NCBI RefSeq assembly: GCF_000017565.1
Contig: NC_009719.1
Span: 1-64,000, forward strand
DNA from: Parvibaculum lavamentivorans DS-1
GTDB lineage: Bacteria > Pseudomonadota > Alphaproteobacteria > Parvibaculales > Parvibaculaceae
DNA length: 64,000 nt
Reading direction: 5' to 3'
The position numbers and the translations under genes were made by a program. Below, in pieces: positions 24,241 through 34,875 of the stretch. How positions within the stretch are numbered: the stretch's first letter is position 1; each line of letters opens with the position of its first letter. A model generated the notes under the pieces. It searched no databases. It saw nothing but the letters and a program-made list of their open reading frames with translations, and was not told the origin of the DNA.

Positions 24241-25362
24241 CTAGTCGGCCGCGACGTTCGCCAGCAGGTTCTTCTTGGCGAAGTTCACCGTCTTCAGGAA
24301 GTCGATGCCCTGCTCTGCGATGTCGTCGCCGACCATGCGGTCGTCTTCGTTCTTCAGTTCTTCCATGTCGACATAGGTCGCGTAGAAGGCGCGGGTGCGG
24401 TCGGTGATGATGCCCGCCTTGAGCAGCGTCTTCACCAGCACGCGGAAGACATTCGCCGCGTCCTTCATGCCCTCGCGCCGGTCTTCATCCGTCACCGCTT
24501 CAAGCATTTCCGCCTGCACCTGTTTCCAGTCGAGGCCGAAATCGGCATAGATCAGTTTCTTCTGTTCAGGGTTCACGAGGTTGAAGAGCAGCGTCTGGAA
24601 GACGCTCGCCGCCCAGTCCTCGATGATGTCCCGCTCTTCCTGGGAGAGTTTGGGGATCGTGCGGTCGGCCCAGATCTTGCCGAACTTGTGGTGGAAGGCC
24701 TCGTCCGTCATGGCGAGCTGGCAGAGCTTCACGAGAAGCGGGTCGCGCGCCGTGTTGAAGAAGGTCGCGAAGGTGCCCATCGCCAGGCCCTCGACGAGAA
24801 GCTGCATGCCGACGATCTTCTTGTAGACCTCTTTCGCATTGACCATTTCGGCCAGAAGGTTCGCCAGCGTCTCGCCGCAGGGAAGCGGCTTGCCCCACCG
24901 GGCCTGCACATATTTCGCGAAGGCGGTGACGTGGCGCGCTTCCTCGCGCGCCTGGTTGGCGGCGTATTCCTGCGCGCCCGGATCGAGCAGGATGTGGCAG
25001 AGCGAGGCGGAGAGATTGAGCGCGCCCTGCTCGCCATGCAGGATCGCCGACATCATCCAGCGCGCGGTCTCGTTGACGAAGCGCACCTTCTCCTTTTCGG
25101 AAAGCTTTTCGAAGGAGGGAAGCTTCAGTTCCGGCACAAGCTCGGGATCGATCAGCATTTCATTTTCGCTGTCGAAGCTGTCCGTGAAGTCGATATAGCG
25201 CTTGTCCATCGGGTCCCAGAAATGGTCATGGGTCGCCGAGATGATCTTGTCGAAGGCGGAGGAGCGCCGGTTGTAGCGCTCGGTATTCATCATCGCCTCG
25301 AAATCGTCCGGCGAGACGGCGTCATAGGCATTGTCCTTGGTGATCTGGCGAATGTCGGTCAT
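24241..25362 (-). CDS. ferritin-like diiron protein, paralogue 1
   Basis: Soluble protein of 373 residues with a complete diiron ligand set on four helices: Glu111 (HGEQGAL), Glu141 and His144 (EEARH), Glu191 (LLVEGLA), Glu221 and His224 (DEAFHH). The E-30-ExxH-47-E-30-ExxH spacing is that of ribonucleotide reductase R2, acyl-ACP desaturase and bacterial multicomponent monooxygenase hydroxylases. No known subfamily signature was recognised, so an oxidase or desaturase role is inferred only from the metal site. ATG 25362 follows GGAGAG. It is divergent from the Hsp70-like gene and shares the operator at 25454-25475. Very similar to the gene at 28598-29731. Confidence 0.8.
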   Translation of the reverse strand: MTDIRQITKDNAYDAVSPDDFEAMMNTERYNRRSSAFDKIISATHDHFWDPMDKRYIDFTDSFDSENEMLIDPELVPELKLPSFEKLSEKEKVRFVNETARWMMSAILHGEQGALNLSASLCHILLDPGAQEYAANQAREEARHVTAFAKYVQARWGKPLPCGETLANLLAEMVNAKEVYKKIVGMQLLVEGLAMGTFATFFNTARDPLLVKLCQLAMTDEAFHHKFGKIWADRTIPKLSQEERDIIEDWAASVFQTLLFNLVNPEQKKLIYADFGLDWKQVQAEMLEAVTDEDRREGMKDAANVFRVLVKTLLKAGIITDRTRAFYATYVDMEELKNEDDRMVGDDIAEQGIDFLKTVNFAKKNLLANVAAD

Positions 25363-25453
25363 CTGTCTCTCCACGCTCCCTTTGCGGTGCCGGCGGAGGC
25401 CGGTCTTTAGCCACACTCGGATTGTGGGTATTGGTGCGACGCACAACAATTCA

Positions 25454-25475
25454 AAAATGACGCCTGCGTCATTTT
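25454..25475. promoter_or_regulatory. 22-base perfect palindrome, operator copy 1
   Basis: AAAATGACGC and GCGTCATTTT are exact inverted copies around CT. It lies between the divergent diiron and Hsp70-like genes, and directly abuts a weak TTGAAT -35 of the diiron gene. Imperfect copies occur at three other sites in this island. Confidence 0.8.
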
Positions 25476-25617
25476 GCGCAGACGCCACCGGGAACGCGGA
25501 CCGTCTGGACAAGTCCCCGCCGCTTCTGTATTTCTCGCCGCCCTTTCGCCGGAAAATCCCGTTCAACCCTCAGATGTATCGCCGTGGCCAGCCGCCAGAC
25601 GGATACGAGGTGATCTC

Positions 25618-26940
25618 ATGTCCCCACGTTTCATCGGTCTCGATTTCGGGACCACCAACAGCGCGCTCGCCGTCGCCTCGCCCGAGGGCGCCGCGCGTCT
25701 CGTACCGGTGCGCCACAGGAACGAACTCCTGAACACCTTCCGCTCGATCCTCTATTTCGACGATGAGGAGCGCGATCCGAACGGACGGCCGCATGCCTTT
25801 GCCGGGCCGGACGCAATGGACGCCTATCTGGAGCGCGGCGCCGAAGGCCGGTTGATCCAGTCGGTGAAATCCTATCTCGCCAATCCGAACTTCACCTCGA
25901 CGAGCATTTTCAACAGCCGCTTCACGCTGGAAAATCTCGTCGGCTTCATCGTCGCCCGGCTCGTCGATGCGACGGCGGAAGCGGAAGAGCTGTCGGGCGA
26001 GATGCTGGCGGGGCCGGTTGTCGTCGGCCGTCCGGCGCGCTTCGTGCGCAACAGTCTGGGCGTGGCCGACGGCGCGCATGACGATCTGGCGGTGGCGCGG
26101 CTGCGCGAGGCGCTGCGCGGCGTCCGCATCCCGGATGTCCATTTTGAATTCGAGCCGGTGGCCGCAGCCTATAGCTACGAGGCATCTCTCGCCCGCGACG
26201 AGCTTGTGCTGATCGGCGACTTCGGCGGCGGCACGTCGGATTTCTGCCTGCTGCATGTCGGCCCCGGCATGCGCGAGGTGAAGGCGCGCGGCGAAACGAT
26301 TGTCGGCGTTTCGGGCGTCGGTCTTGCGGGCGATGCTTTCGATGCGCGCCTGATCGAACATTGCGTCGCGCCGCGCCTCGGCAAGGGCACGAATTACAAG
26401 AGCGGCAGCAAGACGCTTCCCGTTCCGTCCTGGCCCTATGACACGATGAAGCGGTGGCACGAACTGAGCCTCATCAACACCCGCAAGACGCGGCGAATGC
26501 TGGAAGAGATCGGCCAGACGGCAGAAGCGGCGGACGAGGTGGCGGCGCTGTCGCGGCTCATTTCGGAGGAACGCGGCTTCGCGCTTTACCAGGCCGTGGA
26601 GGCGACGAAGGTCGCGCTTTCATCCTCTCCCGAAACGACGCTTCATTTCGATCTCGATCCGGTGACGATCGACGCGCGCGTGACGCGCGCCGAATTCGAC
26701 AGCTGGATCGCGCCGGAGCTTGCGGAAATCTCGACCTGTGTCGACCGCCTGCTGGAGGAGACGGGGACGTCCCCCGGGCGCGTCGACCGCGTCTTCCTGA
26801 CCGGCGGCTCCTCCTTCATTCCCGCGGTCAGGAGGCTCTTCGCGGCCCGCTTCGGCGCGGAAAAGCTGGCCGGCGGCGGCGAGTTGACCTCGGTCGCGAC
26901 GGGGCTCGCGCTTGCCGCGAGGCAGCGTTTCGGGGACTGA
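25618..26940 (+). CDS. Hsp70-like protein (YegD type)
   Basis: Actin-fold ATPase of 440 residues related to E. coli YegD. Phosphate-1 loop is GLDFGTTNSALAV at the N terminus, phosphate-2 is LIGDFGGGTSDFCLL, and the adenosine motif is VFLTGGSSFIPAVRRLF. It keeps the nucleotide-binding half of Hsp70 but lacks the usual substrate-binding and lid domains. ATG 25618 follows GAGGTGATCTC. Its position between two diiron genes and a P450, and the shared operator, suggest it helps folding or assembly of these metalloenzymes; this is inference. Confidence 0.85.
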   Translation: MSPRFIGLDFGTTNSALAVASPEGAARLVPVRHRNELLNTFRSILYFDDEERDPNGRPHAFAGPDAMDAYLERGAEGRLIQSVKSYLANPNFTSTSIFNSRFTLENLVGFIVARLVDATAEAEELSGEMLAGPVVVGRPARFVRNSLGVADGAHDDLAVARLREALRGVRIPDVHFEFEPVAAAYSYEASLARDELVLIGDFGGGTSDFCLLHVGPGMREVKARGETIVGVSGVGLAGDAFDARLIEHCVAPRLGKGTNYKSGSKTLPVPSWPYDTMKRWHELSLINTRKTRRMLEEIGQTAEAADEVAALSRLISEERGFALYQAVEATKVALSSSPETTLHFDLDPVTIDARVTRAEFDSWIAPELAEISTCVDRLLEETGTSPGRVDRVFLTGGSSFIPAVRRLFAARFGAEKLAGGGELTSVATGLALAARQRFGD

Positions 26941-26972
26941 CCGAAAGCAGAAAAAGAGTCAGATTTGTGCAA

Positions 26973-26994
26973 AAAATGACGCCTCCGTCATTTT
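26973..26994. promoter_or_regulatory. operator copy 2, upstream of CYP153
   Basis: AAAATGACGC and CCGTCATTTT around CT: one mismatch from the palindrome at 25454. It overlaps the putative -35 (TTTTCA) of the CYP153 promoter. Confidence 0.75.
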
Positions 26995-27019
26995 CAAGGG
27001 ATTTTTCCCATGCTAGGCT
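26991..27019 (+). promoter_or_regulatory. putative CYP153 promoter
   Basis: TTTTCA (26991-26996) and TAGGCT (27014-27019) are 17 bases apart. The match is moderate, but its -35 is covered by one operator and the start region by the next, the classic layout of a repressed promoter. Confidence 0.45.
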
Positions 27020-27036
27020 TTTGAGTGAAACAACTG

Positions 27037-27058
27037 AAAATGACACCAGCGTCACTTT
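27037..27058. promoter_or_regulatory. operator copy 3, upstream of CYP153
   Basis: AAAATGACAC and GCGTCACTTT around CA: two mismatched pairs relative to the perfect palindrome. It lies 64 bases after copy 2, just downstream of the predicted transcription start. Confidence 0.65.
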
Positions 27059-27132
27059 GCGTATGACAAGTCCGCGTTTACGGACTATCCTTGACGCAAC
27101 GGAAATTCAGAAAAAAGCCGGAGGAAAACCCC

Positions 27133-28401
27133 ATGAGCGACGCAGCGGTAAAATACGAAGCCGATGAGGCACGCGACGAGGCCTATTCGATCCCCCTCGC
27201 GGAGATCAATGTGGCCGACCCGTCGCTCTTCCGGGATTACAAGATGTGGCCCTATTTCGAGCGGCTGCGCGCGGAGGCCCCGGTTCACTACAGCCAGGGC
27301 AATGAGGACACCGGGCCCTACTGGTCGGTGACGCGCTACAACGACATCATGTCGGTGGATACGAACCACCAGGTCTTCTCCTCGGAAGGCGGCATCACGC
27401 TGCGCGACCAGGACGAGGACTTCAAGCTGCCCATGTTCATCGCCATGGACCCGCCCAAGCATGACGACCAGCGGAAAGTCGTGAGCCCCATCGTGGCGCC
27501 CGGCAACCTGGCGAAGCTCGAAGGCACGATCCGCGAACGCGCCGGCAAGATCCTCGACGAATTGCCGACGGGCGAGCCGGTCGACTGGGTCGATCGCGTC
27601 TCCATCGAACTCACGACGCAGATGCTGGCGACGCTGTTCGACTTCCCCTTCGAGGAACGCCGCAAGCTGACGCGCTGGTCCGACGTTGCGACGGCCACGG
27701 AAGAATCCGGCATCATCGAATCCGAGGAGCAGCGCCGCGCCGAACTTCTCGAATGCGCCGAATATTTCATGGGTCTGTGGAATGAGCGCGTGAACGCGCG
27801 TGAGCCGGGCAACGACCTCATCTCCATGCTCGCGCATGGCGAGTCGACCCGCAACATGGACAAGATGGAATATCTCGGGAACCTGATCCTGCTGATCGTC
27901 GGCGGCAACGACACGACGCGCAACTCGATCTCGGGCGGCCTCTACGCGCTCAACAAGTTCCCGGACCAGTACAAGAAGCTCCTCGCCAATCCGGGCATCA
28001 TTCCGAACATGGTACCGGAAATCATCCGCTGGCAGACGCCGCTCGCCTATATGCGCCGCACCGCGCTGCAGGACGCGGAAGTCGGCGGCCAGACGATCCG
28101 CAAGGGTGAAAAGGTTGCGATGTGGTATGTCTCGGGCAACCGCGACGAAAGCGTGATCCAGAACCCGAACGAACTGGTGATCGACCGCGAACGTCCGCGC
28201 CAGCACCTCTCCTTCGGCTTCGGCATTCACCGCTGCGTGGGCAACCGTCTCGCCGAGATGCAGCTCCGCATCATCTGGGAAGAAATCCTGAAGCGTTGGG
28301 ACCAGCCGATCCGTGTGCTGAGCGAGCCGCAGCGCGTGCATTCGAGCTTCGTGAAGGGCTACGAAAAAATGATGGTCGAGTTGCCGAAGCGCAAGCACTG
28401 A
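27133..28401 (+). CDS. cytochrome P450, CYP153 alkane hydroxylase
   Basis: Soluble P450 of 422 residues. The haem loop is FGFGIHRCVG with Cys368 as thiolate ligand. The I-helix motif is GGNDTTRNS at 257 and the K-helix ExxR is EIIRW at 296-300. GGNDTTRNSISGG and the overall length match CYP153 enzymes, which hydroxylate terminal carbons of n-alkanes, fatty acids or terpenes. ATG 27133 follows GGAGG. No ferredoxin or ferredoxin reductase gene is adjacent, so electrons must come from elsewhere. Two operators precede it and a terminator follows. Confidence 0.92.
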   Translation: MSDAAVKYEADEARDEAYSIPLAEINVADPSLFRDYKMWPYFERLRAEAPVHYSQGNEDTGPYWSVTRYNDIMSVDTNHQVFSSEGGITLRDQDEDFKLPMFIAMDPPKHDDQRKVVSPIVAPGNLAKLEGTIRERAGKILDELPTGEPVDWVDRVSIELTTQMLATLFDFPFEERRKLTRWSDVATATEESGIIESEEQRRAELLECAEYFMGLWNERVNAREPGNDLISMLAHGESTRNMDKMEYLGNLILLIVGGNDTTRNSISGGLYALNKFPDQYKKLLANPGIIPNMVPEIIRWQTPLAYMRRTALQDAEVGGQTIRKGEKVAMWYVSGNRDESVIQNPNELVIDRERPRQHLSFGFGIHRCVGNRLAEMQLRIIWEEILKRWDQPIRVLSEPQRVHSSFVKGYEKMMVELPKRKH

Positions 28402-28437
28402 GGCAACCGCCGCACCAGGAACAGCCGCACCAGGAAC

Positions 28438-28470
28438 AGCCGGGCCGGAGACATCCGCGCCCGGCTTTTT
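28438..28470 (+). terminator. terminator of CYP153
   Basis: AGCCGGGC (28438-28445) pairs with GCCCGGCT (28459-28466), followed by TTTTT. A 15-base direct repeat (CCGCACCAGGAACAG, twice) lies between stop codon and hairpin. Confidence 0.8.
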
Positions 28471-28496
28471 CATGCGCCCTCTCCAGCGGGTGGAAA

Positions 28497-28530
28497 CAAA
28501 AAGGGCGGCTTCCGAAGAAGCCGCCCAGTT
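28497..28530 (-). terminator. terminator of the second diiron gene
   Basis: On the minus strand GGGCGGCTTC-TTCG-GAAGCCGCCC is followed by TTTTTG; a ten-pair stem with a stable TTCG tetraloop (stem arms 28503-28512 and 28517-28526). Confidence 0.85.
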
Positions 28531-28597
28531 TGTTCGAGGGGATCGAGTTGAGGGAACTCTACTCCGTCTACGCTTTACGCAACTTGTCGTCCGGCGC

Positions 28598-29731
28598 TTA
28601 TTCCGCGGCGGAGACGCTTACATTCTTCAGCGCATCGGCATTGGTGCCGAAATTGATCTGCTGCAGATAGCGGATGCCGTCCTCGGCGATATCGTCGCCG
28701 ACCATGCGGTCGCCTTCATGGCGCAGCTCTTCCATGTCCACATAGGTGGCGTAGAAGGCCTTGGTGCGGTCGGTGATGATGCCGGCCTTGAGCAGCGTCT
28801 TGATGAGCACGCGGAAGATGTTGGTGCCTTCCTTCATGCTCTCGCGGCGGTCTTCATCGCCGAAGGCTTCGAGCATCTCGAGCTGCACCTGCTGCCATTC
28901 GAGACCGAACTCGCCGTAGATCGCCTGCTTCTGCTCGGGGTTCACGAGGTTGAACAGCAGGGTCTGGAAGCACTCGGCCGCCCAGTCCTCGATGATGTTC
29001 TGCTCTTCTTCCGAGAGGTTCGGGATCGTGCGGTCGGCCCAGATCTTGCCGAACTTGTGATGGAAGGCTTCGTCCGTCATCACGAGCTGCGTCAGCTTGA
29101 CGAGGAGCGGATCGTTCGACTTCGCGTAAAGCGTCGCGAAGGCGCCCATGGCAAGGCCTTCGACCAGCATCTGCATGCCGACGATCTTCTTGTAGACCTC
29201 CGGTGCGTTGACGATGTTGGTGAGCAGGCCGCCCAGCGTCGGGCCGACGGCGAGGGGCTTGCCCCAACGCGCCTGGATGTATTTCGCGAAGGCCGTCACA
29301 TGGCGGGCTTCTTCGCGGGTCTGGTTGGCGGCATATTCCTGCGCGCCCGGATCCTTCAGGATGTGGCAGAGCGAGGCGGAAAGCGCCAGCGCGCCGGCTT
29401 CGCCATGCAGGATCGACGAGAGCATCCAGCGCGCGCTCTCATTCGCGAATTTCACGCGCTGCTTTTCCGTCAGCTTCTCGAAGCAGGGCAGGCGCAGCTC
29501 CGGCATCAACTCGCCCGGCATCACCATCTGGTTTTCGAGATCGAAGGGTTCGGCGAAGTCGATGTACTTCTCGTCCAGCGGATCCCAGAAATGGTCGTGG
29601 GTCGCGGAAATGATCTTGTCGAAGGCGGTGGAGCGGGCGCCGTAACGTTCCGGCTGCATCATCGCCGGGAAATCATGGGGGGCGACGGCATCATAGGCGT
29701 CGTCTTTGGTGATCTGCCGAATTTCGGTCAT
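28598..29731 (-). CDS. ferritin-like diiron protein, paralogue 2
   Basis: Close paralogue of the gene at 24241-25362, with long identical blocks such as DPGAQEYAANQ and VTAFAKY. The 377 residues keep all six ligands at the same positions: Glu111, Glu141, His144, Glu191, Glu221, His224. Differences concentrate in residues 20-35, 60-80 and the last 20. ATG 29731 (MTEIRQITKDD) or the Met one codon upstream starts the protein. Own promoter and an operator copy lie upstream. Having two paralogues facing a P450 suggests either a heterodimer or two substrates; not decidable from sequence. Confidence 0.8.
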   Translation of the reverse strand: MTEIRQITKDDAYDAVAPHDFPAMMQPERYGARSTAFDKIISATHDHFWDPLDEKYIDFAEPFDLENQMVMPGELMPELRLPCFEKLTEKQRVKFANESARWMLSSILHGEAGALALSASLCHILKDPGAQEYAANQTREEARHVTAFAKYIQARWGKPLAVGPTLGGLLTNIVNAPEVYKKIVGMQMLVEGLAMGAFATLYAKSNDPLLVKLTQLVMTDEAFHHKFGKIWADRTIPNLSEEEQNIIEDWAAECFQTLLFNLVNPEQKQAIYGEFGLEWQQVQLEMLEAFGDEDRRESMKEGTNIFRVLIKTLLKAGIITDRTKAFYATYVDMEELRHEGDRMVGDDIAEDGIRYLQQINFGTNADALKNVSVSAAE

Positions 29732-29835
29732 CAAGGGTTCTCCAGAGGGTCAGCCGGGACGAGGGGTCGCCGGGAACGCGGGAAGCCGGACTTCGAAGGC
29801 GAGCGCCCCCCTGCCGGTCTGTTCTGTTTCAGGAA

Positions 29836-29863
29836 AGAATAGGGCCGGGTGTCCCCGGGTCAA
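29836..29863 (-). promoter_or_regulatory. promoter of the second diiron gene
   Basis: On the minus strand TTGACC (29863-29858) and TATTCT (29841-29836) are 16 bases apart, about 105 bases before the start codon. Confidence 0.6.
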
Positions 29864-29867
29864 GGGA

Positions 29868-29889
29868 AAAATGACGGAGGCGTCAACTT
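29868..29889. promoter_or_regulatory. operator copy 4, upstream of second diiron gene
   Basis: AAAATGACGG and GCGTCAACTT around AG: the core TGACG-N4-CGTCA is intact, flanks partly diverged. It sits just upstream of the -35, as copy 1 does for the first diiron gene. Confidence 0.65.
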
Positions 29890-33621: not shown

Positions 33622-34875
33622 TCAGCCCTCCGGCGTGTAGCTCACCGGCATTTCCTTGATGCCGTAGATGAAGTTCGAGCGCAGCCGCCGGATCGGCCCC
33701 GAGACGTTGATGTCCGGGAAGCGGCGCAGCAATTCCTCGAACAGGATCGTGAGCTGCAATTCCGCGAGCCGCGAGCCGAGACAGAAATGCTGCCCGACGC
33801 CGAAGCCGATCTGCGCCGGCACGCCCGGCGCCGCATAGCGTGCAACGTCGAAGCGGTAGGGATCGGCCCATTGCGCCTCGTCGCGATTGCCGGACGCATA
33901 CCACATCACCACCTTGTCGCCTTTGCGGATCTTCTGGCCGCGCAATTCCGTATCTTCCGTCGCCGTGCGGCGCATATGGAGAACGGGGCTCACCCAGCGC
34001 ACGATTTCCTGTACCGCGCTCGGGATCAGCGATGGATCGTCGAGGAGCTTCTGCCGCTCCCCCGGATTTTCCGAAAGCGCCAGCAGCCCGCCCGAGATCG
34101 AATTGCGCGTCGTCTCGTTGCCCGCCACGACAAGCAGGATGAAGGTGCCGATATAGGTCGGGAAGTTCATCGCCTCGCCGCCGATCTTCGAATGGGCGAG
34201 CATGGAAATGAGATCGTCGCCCGGCGTCTCCAGCCGCTGCTGCCAGAGCCCCGCCGCATAGCCCGCCATCTCCATGATGCATTTCTGCATATATTCGTCG
34301 GAGACGCGCAGCTCCGGGTCGTCCTCGCCTACCGTCGCGTTCGACCATTCGAAGAGCTTCGGCCCGTCGCTTTCCGGCACGCCGAAAAGTTCGGCCAGCA
34401 CTTCGATGGGGAGCGCGGCGGCCACGGCGGAAATGAACTCCGCCTCGCCCGTCTTCGGCATCGCATCGAGCAGCCGCGTCACGCGCGCGCGGATGCGCTC
34501 TTCCATATTGGAAATGCGCTTCGGCACAAAGCCCGGCGTCACCATCCGCCGGTAGCCCGCATGGGCCGGCGGGTCCATCGAGATCATGCTCGCGTCGGTG
34601 TCGTTCCCGCCGATCTCGTTCTCGTTGAAGATGCGGTGTCCGCCATTATGCTTGGCGGAGGAAAAGAGCTTCGGATTTTTCGACACCGCCTCGATGTCGT
34701 CATAGCGCGTCACCGCCCAGAAGCCGGGGCCGTCCGCTTCCGGGTTCCAGTAGACGGGCTCTTCCGCGCGCAAGCGGCGAAAGGCCTCGTGATGCTGCTC
34801 ATGCAGATAGAGGTCCGGGTCTTTCAGATCCGGCTTGCCGTTGAGATCGATCGCCTTCGCCTGCGGCCTGAGCAT
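33622..34875 (-). CDS. cytochrome P450 (CYP125/CYP142-like group)
   Basis: Soluble P450 of 417 residues, distinct from the CYP153. Haem loop FGVGQHFCLG with Cys365; I-helix AGNETTRNS at 251; K-helix EIVRW at 290. The DPPAHAGYRRMVTPGF segment and overall pattern recall steroid or cholesterol side-chain P450s such as CYP125 and CYP142, or linalool-type CYPs. Substrate cannot be fixed. ATG 34875 follows AGGAGAGGG. The stop lies three bases from the convergent hydroxylase stop. Confidence 0.9.
   Translation of the reverse strand: MLRPQAKAIDLNGKPDLKDPDLYLHEQHHEAFRRLRAEEPVYWNPEADGPGFWAVTRYDDIEAVSKNPKLFSSAKHNGGHRIFNENEIGGNDTDASMISMDPPAHAGYRRMVTPGFVPKRISNMEERIRARVTRLLDAMPKTGEAEFISAVAAALPIEVLAELFGVPESDGPKLFEWSNATVGEDDPELRVSDEYMQKCIMEMAGYAAGLWQQRLETPGDDLISMLAHSKIGGEAMNFPTYIGTFILLVVAGNETTRNSISGGLLALSENPGERQKLLDDPSLIPSAVQEIVRWVSPVLHMRRTATEDTELRGQKIRKGDKVVMWYASGNRDEAQWADPYRFDVARYAAPGVPAQIGFGVGQHFCLGSRLAELQLTILFEELLRRFPDINVSGPIRRLRSNFIYGIKEMPVSYTPEG

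Follow-up and report, generated by a model that had tools for sequence, protein, structure and literature searches.

A dispersed TetR-family regulon for terminal alkyl-chain oxidation is probably controlled through a 22-base palindrome (core TGACG-N4-CGTCA), present in four copies in the window analysed here, bases 1-64000 of one 3,914,745-base contig of Parvibaculum lavamentivorans DS-1 (NC_009719.1). The palindrome is most likely read by the product of a TetR-type gene at 479000-479659 (locus L203). The sequence-only reading of this DNA had placed a perhaps TetR-like regulator outside the window, and the TetR-family candidate indeed lies there. The computed basis comprises the sites, their conservation, their placement 2-5 base pairs (bp) before the predicted -35 element at most of the diiron promoters examined, and the TGACG palindrome that precedes the regulator gene; binding of L203 to the operator is a prediction drawn from these.

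The pattern AAAATGACGC-NN-GCGTCATTTT was found at exactly four places in the window at up to three mismatches, and in none of 100 dinucleotide shuffles of the window. The four palindromes reported earlier were all recovered exactly where that reading had put them (Table 1), which confirms the observation, and each of them precedes genes for a diiron protein, the Hsp70-like protein or CYP153, in agreement with the proposal of one palindromic operator common to these genes, arranged in the order diiron-1, Hsp70-like, CYP153, diiron-2. The interpretation as a whole is partly supported. A local regulon had been envisaged, and this part did not stand: the genome contains nine places matching at up to three mismatches (none for the reversed-pattern control), and three further strong operators and one weaker operator precede genes of redox partners, an alcohol dehydrogenase, a third diiron paralogue (diiron-3) and acyl-CoA metabolism elsewhere in the genome, so the regulon is not local. 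Two other matches were excluded from membership, one at 553966 with a score of 14.7 and one at 2461257, since the codons of a conserved coding sequence explain the latter. The regulon would include diiron-1/Hsp70-like, CYP153, diiron-2, ferredoxin reductase-ferredoxin, GMC alcohol dehydrogenase and diiron-3/alpha-beta hydrolase, with acyl-CoA synthetase/enoyl-CoA hydratase as a probable member; the family names of these proteins suggest one pathway that would comprise terminal hydroxylation with its electron supply, oxidation of the alcohol and activation of the chain.

Table 1. Coordinates of the operator copies, predicted promoters, genes and the candidate regulator (window numbering, identical to that of the contig), with the orthologue promoters bearing a TGACG palindrome.
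Feature	Position	Strand	Remarks
Operator 1	25454..25475	.	perfect palindrome, 0 mismatches; matrix score 38.4 (maximum 39.3); between the divergent diiron-1 and Hsp70-like genes
Operator 2	26973..26994	.	1 mismatch; matrix score 36.6; upstream copy before CYP153
Operator 3	27037..27058	.	2 mismatches; score 33.4; CYP153-proximal, 4 bp before predicted -35
Operator 4	29868..29889	.	3 mismatches; score 32.2; upstream of diiron-2, 4 bp before predicted -35
Strong operator	140797		before ferredoxin reductase and 2Fe-2S ferredoxin
Strong operator	2847523		before GMC alcohol dehydrogenase
Strong operator	2388257		between diiron-3 and alpha/beta hydrolase
Weaker operator	921813		between AMP-binding acyl-CoA synthetase and enoyl-CoA hydratase
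Predicted diiron-1 promoter	25421..25449	-	TTGTTG-17-CACAAT; consensus match, score 6.2
Predicted CYP153 promoter	27063..27091	+	ATGACA-17-TATCCT; score 10.7; layout shared by L076:6307 and L073:2667
Predicted diiron-2 promoter	29836..29863	-	TTGACC-16-TATTCT; score 12.0
Diiron-1, AurF-like	24241..25362	-	Pfam AurF 32 bits, cut-off 29.6
Hsp70-like protein	25618..26940	+	Pfam HSP70 73.9 bits, above cut-off
CYP153-type cytochrome P450	27133..28401	+	Pfam p450 (PF00067) 74.9 bits; CYP153A7 structure 3rwl, E 1.1e-180
Diiron-2, AurF-like	28598..29731	-	Pfam AurF 30 bits; aligned, 75% identical to diiron-1
Candidate TetR-family regulator L203	479000-479659	+	outside the window; TetR_N PF00440 58.3 bits, cut-off 24
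Palindrome-bearing promoters of L203 orthologues			N5: L371, L372; N3: L381, L382, L386, L387, L389, L390, L427; N4: L379, L393, L394, L398

Random occurrence across the genome, which the sequence-only reading had named as grounds for abandoning it, was not observed; all 27 genomes of the genus that were examined, including that of strain DS-1, contain at least one match, and the reversed control gave none in any of them. Linkage in relatives was analysed at sites picked by sequence from the genus-wide list of operators. The GMC gene accompanies its type of site in eight of nine loci, the ninth having a gene fragment truncated at the contig end; the ferredoxin reductase does so in five of six loci and diiron-3 in all three. 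Among the alphaproteobacterial diiron loci listed, 57 of 77 carry the operator (up to four mismatches) within 400 bp upstream. In operator-anchored alignments of Parvibaculum-type promoters (n=20, 21 and 5), the operator shows 86-94% identity per column and the flanks 41-57%, a difference that arises partly by construction. Across the class, the operator at up to two mismatches was detected in 39 of 386 genomes, some of them with single, chance-like matches, and the reversed control in one; some of the class-wide sites that were read adjoin genes of P450s, a ferredoxin, a ferredoxin reductase, a second AurF-type family and an acyl-CoA dehydrogenase.

The position of the operator relative to the promoter is also recurrent, where promoters are consensus matches, predicted rather than mapped start sites. 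Between the operator and the predicted -35 there are 4 bp at both diiron-1 and diiron-2, which bears out the earlier description of these copies as lying beside the -35, and 3 bp at diiron-3. The claim that two copies flank the start of CYP153 holds for a weaker promoter match (8.3), located between the copies, and fails for the better one (10.7), which is downstream of both and where the copy at 27037 again ends 4 bp before the -35. For a wider set of diiron promoters, 124 upstream regions were reduced to 90 (operator at up to four mismatches, length up to 450) and to 68 after the removal of near-duplicates; L106, L109 and L119 are still counted twice among the 68, at differing starts, and all three fall in the class where the TTGACG of the operator itself scores as the -35. 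In 53 of the 68, the distance from the operator to the start of the best -35 is 2-5 bp (200 mononucleotide shuffles of the DNA after the operator: mean 3.0, maximum 9), a range set after the histogram was seen. The TTGACG class contains 10 entries (7 places), fewer than the shuffle mean of 16.4, and therefore carries no weight on its own. Among the CYP153-type sites of relatives, a clear -35 at 3-4 bp was found in three of eight (L073, L076:6307, L309:3312), L309:4893 represents a weak-scoring case of the same layout, and the best promoter is elsewhere at L264, L310, L079 and L076:6249; L073, which has a single operator at CYP153, keeps the 4-bp layout. The layout is thus not confined to diiron genes, as some CYP153-type sites share the 3-4 bp spacing. 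Scoring of the Hsp70, ferredoxin-reductase and ferredoxin promoters did not reveal it; operator and best -35 overlap at the GMC gene, and in some relatives (L123, L138) a second operator-like palindrome is present near the -10. Repression is somewhat more probable than activation, a choice that these mixed layouts do not decide.

The sequence-only reading had advised looking for TetR or GntR genes with the same site in their own promoter. Scanning all 42 TetR loci of the genome revealed no strong operator site at a TetR promoter, the coding-sequence match at 2461257 being the only exception. A TGACG-N3..5-CGTCA palindrome is present upstream of one of the 42, namely L203; it is found at TTGACGATTGTCGTCA, whose TTGACG was judged to be a -35 on visual inspection. 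Of 77 TetR genes found in six other genomes, 30 were examined, and the only two with such a palindrome are L203 orthologues. The strict palindrome is present upstream of 13 of the 45 L203 orthologues, belonging to six families, with one more near form; the spacing is N4 in four (G381 and three f37 members), N3 in seven (genomes of f3, f4, f46 and f104) and N5 in two (both Parvibaculum). Regulator genes of the TetR family are commonly, not obligatorily, preceded by a palindrome of the half-site type found at their targets. The half-site spacing at the promoter of the regulator shifts by one base either way, with N4 at the target operators, and this variation could make self-binding weaker. The small operator-bearing genomes G161, G387 and G321 encode only 3-5 TetR proteins each, and each contains strong full-length matches to two TetR proteins of strain DS-1, L203 and L218.

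The helix GTFYN[YH]F is shared by three of the 42 TetR proteins: L203, 1678091 and 145708. The 1678091 protein represents a separate TetR family, together with P0001, with a nearly identical helix (GTFYNYF/GTFYNHF), and has TGACT-N4-AGTCA-type palindromes in its own promoter and in those of relatives; the 5-N4-5 geometry is the same as in the operator, and one base differs per half-site. This is a hint from an independent line that the GTFYNYF helix may read TGAC-type half-sites, and it is no rule, since 145708, which also bears the helix, has a different palindrome of its own. In the proposed mechanism, an L203 dimer would read the TGACG half-sites via the recognition helix GLASGTFYNYF at the regulon promoters and would regulate the L203 gene as well; the dimer would be displaced from the operator, or switched, by a ligand that alkyl-chain oxidation provides, presumably alkane-derived or an acyl-CoA.

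Co-occurrence was scored with at most seven first-look candidates per genome, which is one of several points weighing against the assignment to L203 and the operator reading. Orthologues of L203 (expectation value, E, up to 1e-25) were found in 45 of the 386 genomes, including 29 of the 39 with an operator and 20 of the 21 with at least two sites; G267, with two sites, has no orthologue at this threshold. The control TetR L218 is present in 24 of the 39 and 16 of the 21, and the co-occurrence is therefore largely a matter of shared ancestry, so the promoter evidence weighs most. Operators were detected in five of 14 genomes with L203 only and in none of 15 with L218 only (Fisher p 0.017), four of the five being small AT-rich f43 genomes with two sites each. 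Further points against are the 20 of the 77 listed diiron loci in which no operator (up to four mismatches) lies within 400 bp, one of them L115 with a diiron protein 89% identical to diiron-1; the ferredoxin-reductase-type site at L411, where no reductase gene was found; and the N5 spacing of the L203 palindrome, set against N4 at the targets and in only four of the 13 palindrome-bearing orthologues. The operator could also be genuine and read by a different regulator, either a P0002-type TetR or a member of a non-TetR family. This is consistent with 32 of the 45 L203 orthologues having no strict TGACG palindrome in the roughly 420 bp before them (one has the near form), among them those of operator-rich genomes (G034, G154, G384, G305, G134), with a regulator screen that covered TetR-type genes, and with the divergent region that P0002 shares with a ferredoxin gene and a full operator in L283, L284 and L300. 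P0002, however, carries a separate palindrome, CAATGTTG, and the best match to P0002 in the DS-1 genome reaches E 2.9e-12 over 63 residues, while the only half-site palindrome among the 42 TetR genes belongs to the 479000 gene; a different regulator is distinctly unlikely.

A possible, less favoured alternative retains both the operator and L203 and makes the latter an activator that contacts RNA polymerase from a site immediately before the -35; the same protein would repress its own gene, whose promoter has a half-site overlapping the -35-like TTGACG. The spacing of 2-5 bp at diiron promoters, the 4 bp at CYP153 in the window and the 3-4 bp at CYP153-type sites of relatives, with the weak case L309:4893, would fit such contacts. 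Acyl-CoA-responsive TetR activators exist, e.g., FasR (PMC7382501), which is a below-cut-off NCBIfam match to the candidate over most of its length (41.5 bits, cut-off 330). Against activation stand the post hoc choice of the 2-5 bp range and the mostly orthologous nature of the diiron promoters, owing to which the spacing is partly inherited, as well as the overlap of operator and -35 at the GMC gene and the second palindrome near the -10 in L123 and L138; in addition, the vast majority of TetR-family regulators are described as repressors (PMC7382501). That the pattern arose by chance or from repeats and has no regulatory role would fit some matches elsewhere, such as those inside conserved coding sequence (2461257 and its counterpart in G005), the low-scoring one at 553966 and several single-site genomes of the class-wide scan; given the empty shuffles of the window, the reversed control (none in the 27 genus genomes, one in the 386 of the class) and the conserved placement in promoters, this explanation of the four copies is extremely improbable. 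The reading of the palindrome as the operator of an L203-controlled regulon is retained as the most probable.

Several other TetR genes were considered as the regulator and rejected. TetR 2386349, adjoining diiron-3, has CATAC...GTATG-type palindromes in its own promoter, i.e., another operator; P0001, beside a diiron gene in G010, has its own TGACT-N4-AGTCA-type copies, like the 1678091 family; and 145708, near ferredoxin genes, has its own ATGAGA...TCTCAT palindrome. For the tandem TetR genes 2459637-2460909, considered as autoregulated, the palindrome falls within conserved coding sequence, which on visual inspection looks like that of a sortase. The P0002-type TetR, with its own palindrome next to the start, has no close match in the DS-1 genome, and L218 shows weaker co-occurrence than L203, with no operator in the 15 genomes that have L218 without L203. 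In the loci L283, L284 and L300, from another genus of the family, the P0002 gene is accompanied by genes for a ferredoxin and an AurF-type protein, both of which have a separate operator. In several genomes of the genus, genes of a second TetR family (G000 1678013 and relatives such as L161, L166, L171, L175) are immediately preceded by tandem TGACTNNNNAGTCA-type palindromes.

The putative products of the window genes differ in how clearly they can be assigned. The product of 27133-28401 is predicted to have a P450 fold with the closest similarity to CYP153 proteins; its match to CYP153A7 (3rwl, Table 1) contrasts with E 4.1e-73 for the best CYP125-type chain, and two chains named only 'Cytochrome P450' outscore CYP153A7. 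The Hsp70-like protein, with 183.4 bits, is below the curated NCBIfam score of 331 for PRK11678 (NF008673). With the AurF profile (PF11583, gathering score 29.6), two of the three diiron proteins pass and diiron-3 fails with 21.8 bits. The AlphaFold model of diiron-2 (mean predicted local distance difference test score, pLDDT, 81.3) aligned to AurF (2jcd_A) with a template modelling (TM) score of 0.54, but with a Foldseek E of 0.066, and the Foldseek search gave no match at E up to 0.001. Across 18 diiron sequences, no variation occurs at the Glu and His positions within REEARH and TDEAFHH, as is expected of metal ligands. A fourth diiron paralogue (G000 553583, L022:1118, minus strand), 74% identical to diiron-2, has no good operator, and five loci encoding proteins 73-75% identical to diiron-2 (L116, L124, L126, L128, L131) likewise lack one. 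A second P450 gene of the window (33622-34875, 417 aa) adjoins the regulon genes and yet has no operator within five mismatches.

Among known regulators, FadR of Bacillus and FasR of Mycobacterium belong, like the candidate, to the same helix-turn-helix family with inverted-repeat operators and regulate fatty-acid metabolism, whereas the predicted targets of L203 are alkyl-chain oxidation genes. Both are among its best NCBIfam neighbours, and the candidate is an equivalog of neither, scoring 50 bits with NF053878 (FadR, curated score 200) and 41.5 with NF053731 (FasR, curated score 330); FasR responds to acyl-CoA (PMC7382501). The TetR catabolic regulons of FadP, PsrA and LiuQ in Proteobacteria were likewise reconstructed by comparative genomics, with FadP in betaproteobacteria and PsrA in other lineages (PMC5343134); the likeness drawn here is one of approach, and the word 'alkane' is absent from the main text of that paper. 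AlkR (GntR/VanR) and CrgA (LysR) of Pseudomonas aeruginosa also control an alkane monooxygenase (PMC12042122, PMC6422896), but they differ from the candidate in protein family and in their target, AlkB2 rather than CYP153 with its redox partners. Within the literature searched (titles and the beginnings of abstracts, mostly without subscription papers), neither a description of this regulator or operator nor an assignment of the operator to L203 was met in print. P. lavamentivorans DS-1 grows on C8-C16 alkanes (PMC3368416), and alphaproteobacterial CYP153-type oxidation of alkanes and surfactants gains a named candidate regulator, an operator and a list of predicted targets. Through the shared operator, the AurF-like diiron proteins, which are uncharacterised, are linked with CYP153, with its probable redox partners and with the alcohol dehydrogenase, and this is circumstantial evidence of their role.

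In five small AT-rich f43 genomes (L275-L279, L291-L296), the palindrome is located, according to Pfam searches, before TolC-type and HlyD-type genes among others, including a TolC-type outer membrane efflux protein at L275 (G267) and an HlyD-type membrane-fusion protein at L277 (G181). The genomes G069, G181, G336 and G402, and not G267, encode a match 30-35% identical to the candidate TetR, and no strict palindrome was found upstream of these matches. The f43 operator sites suggest a rewiring of the regulon to export. A broader picture, in which the AurF-like diiron proteins and the co-regulated Hsp70-like protein would not be accessory but form an alkyl-chain oxygenase system parallel to CYP153, with one alphaproteobacterial TetR, an activator bound at a fixed position immediately before the -35, running both and the f43 TetR-operator pair rewired to TolC/HlyD-type export, is speculative and rather unlikely. 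Apart from these sites, TTGACGCTTACGTCAACGTCAA, with half-sites resembling those of the operator and different flanks, occurs at G000 498112 (L030), upstream of a MerR-like-looking open reading frame, perhaps LiuR-like, which is followed by acyl-CoA-type genes.

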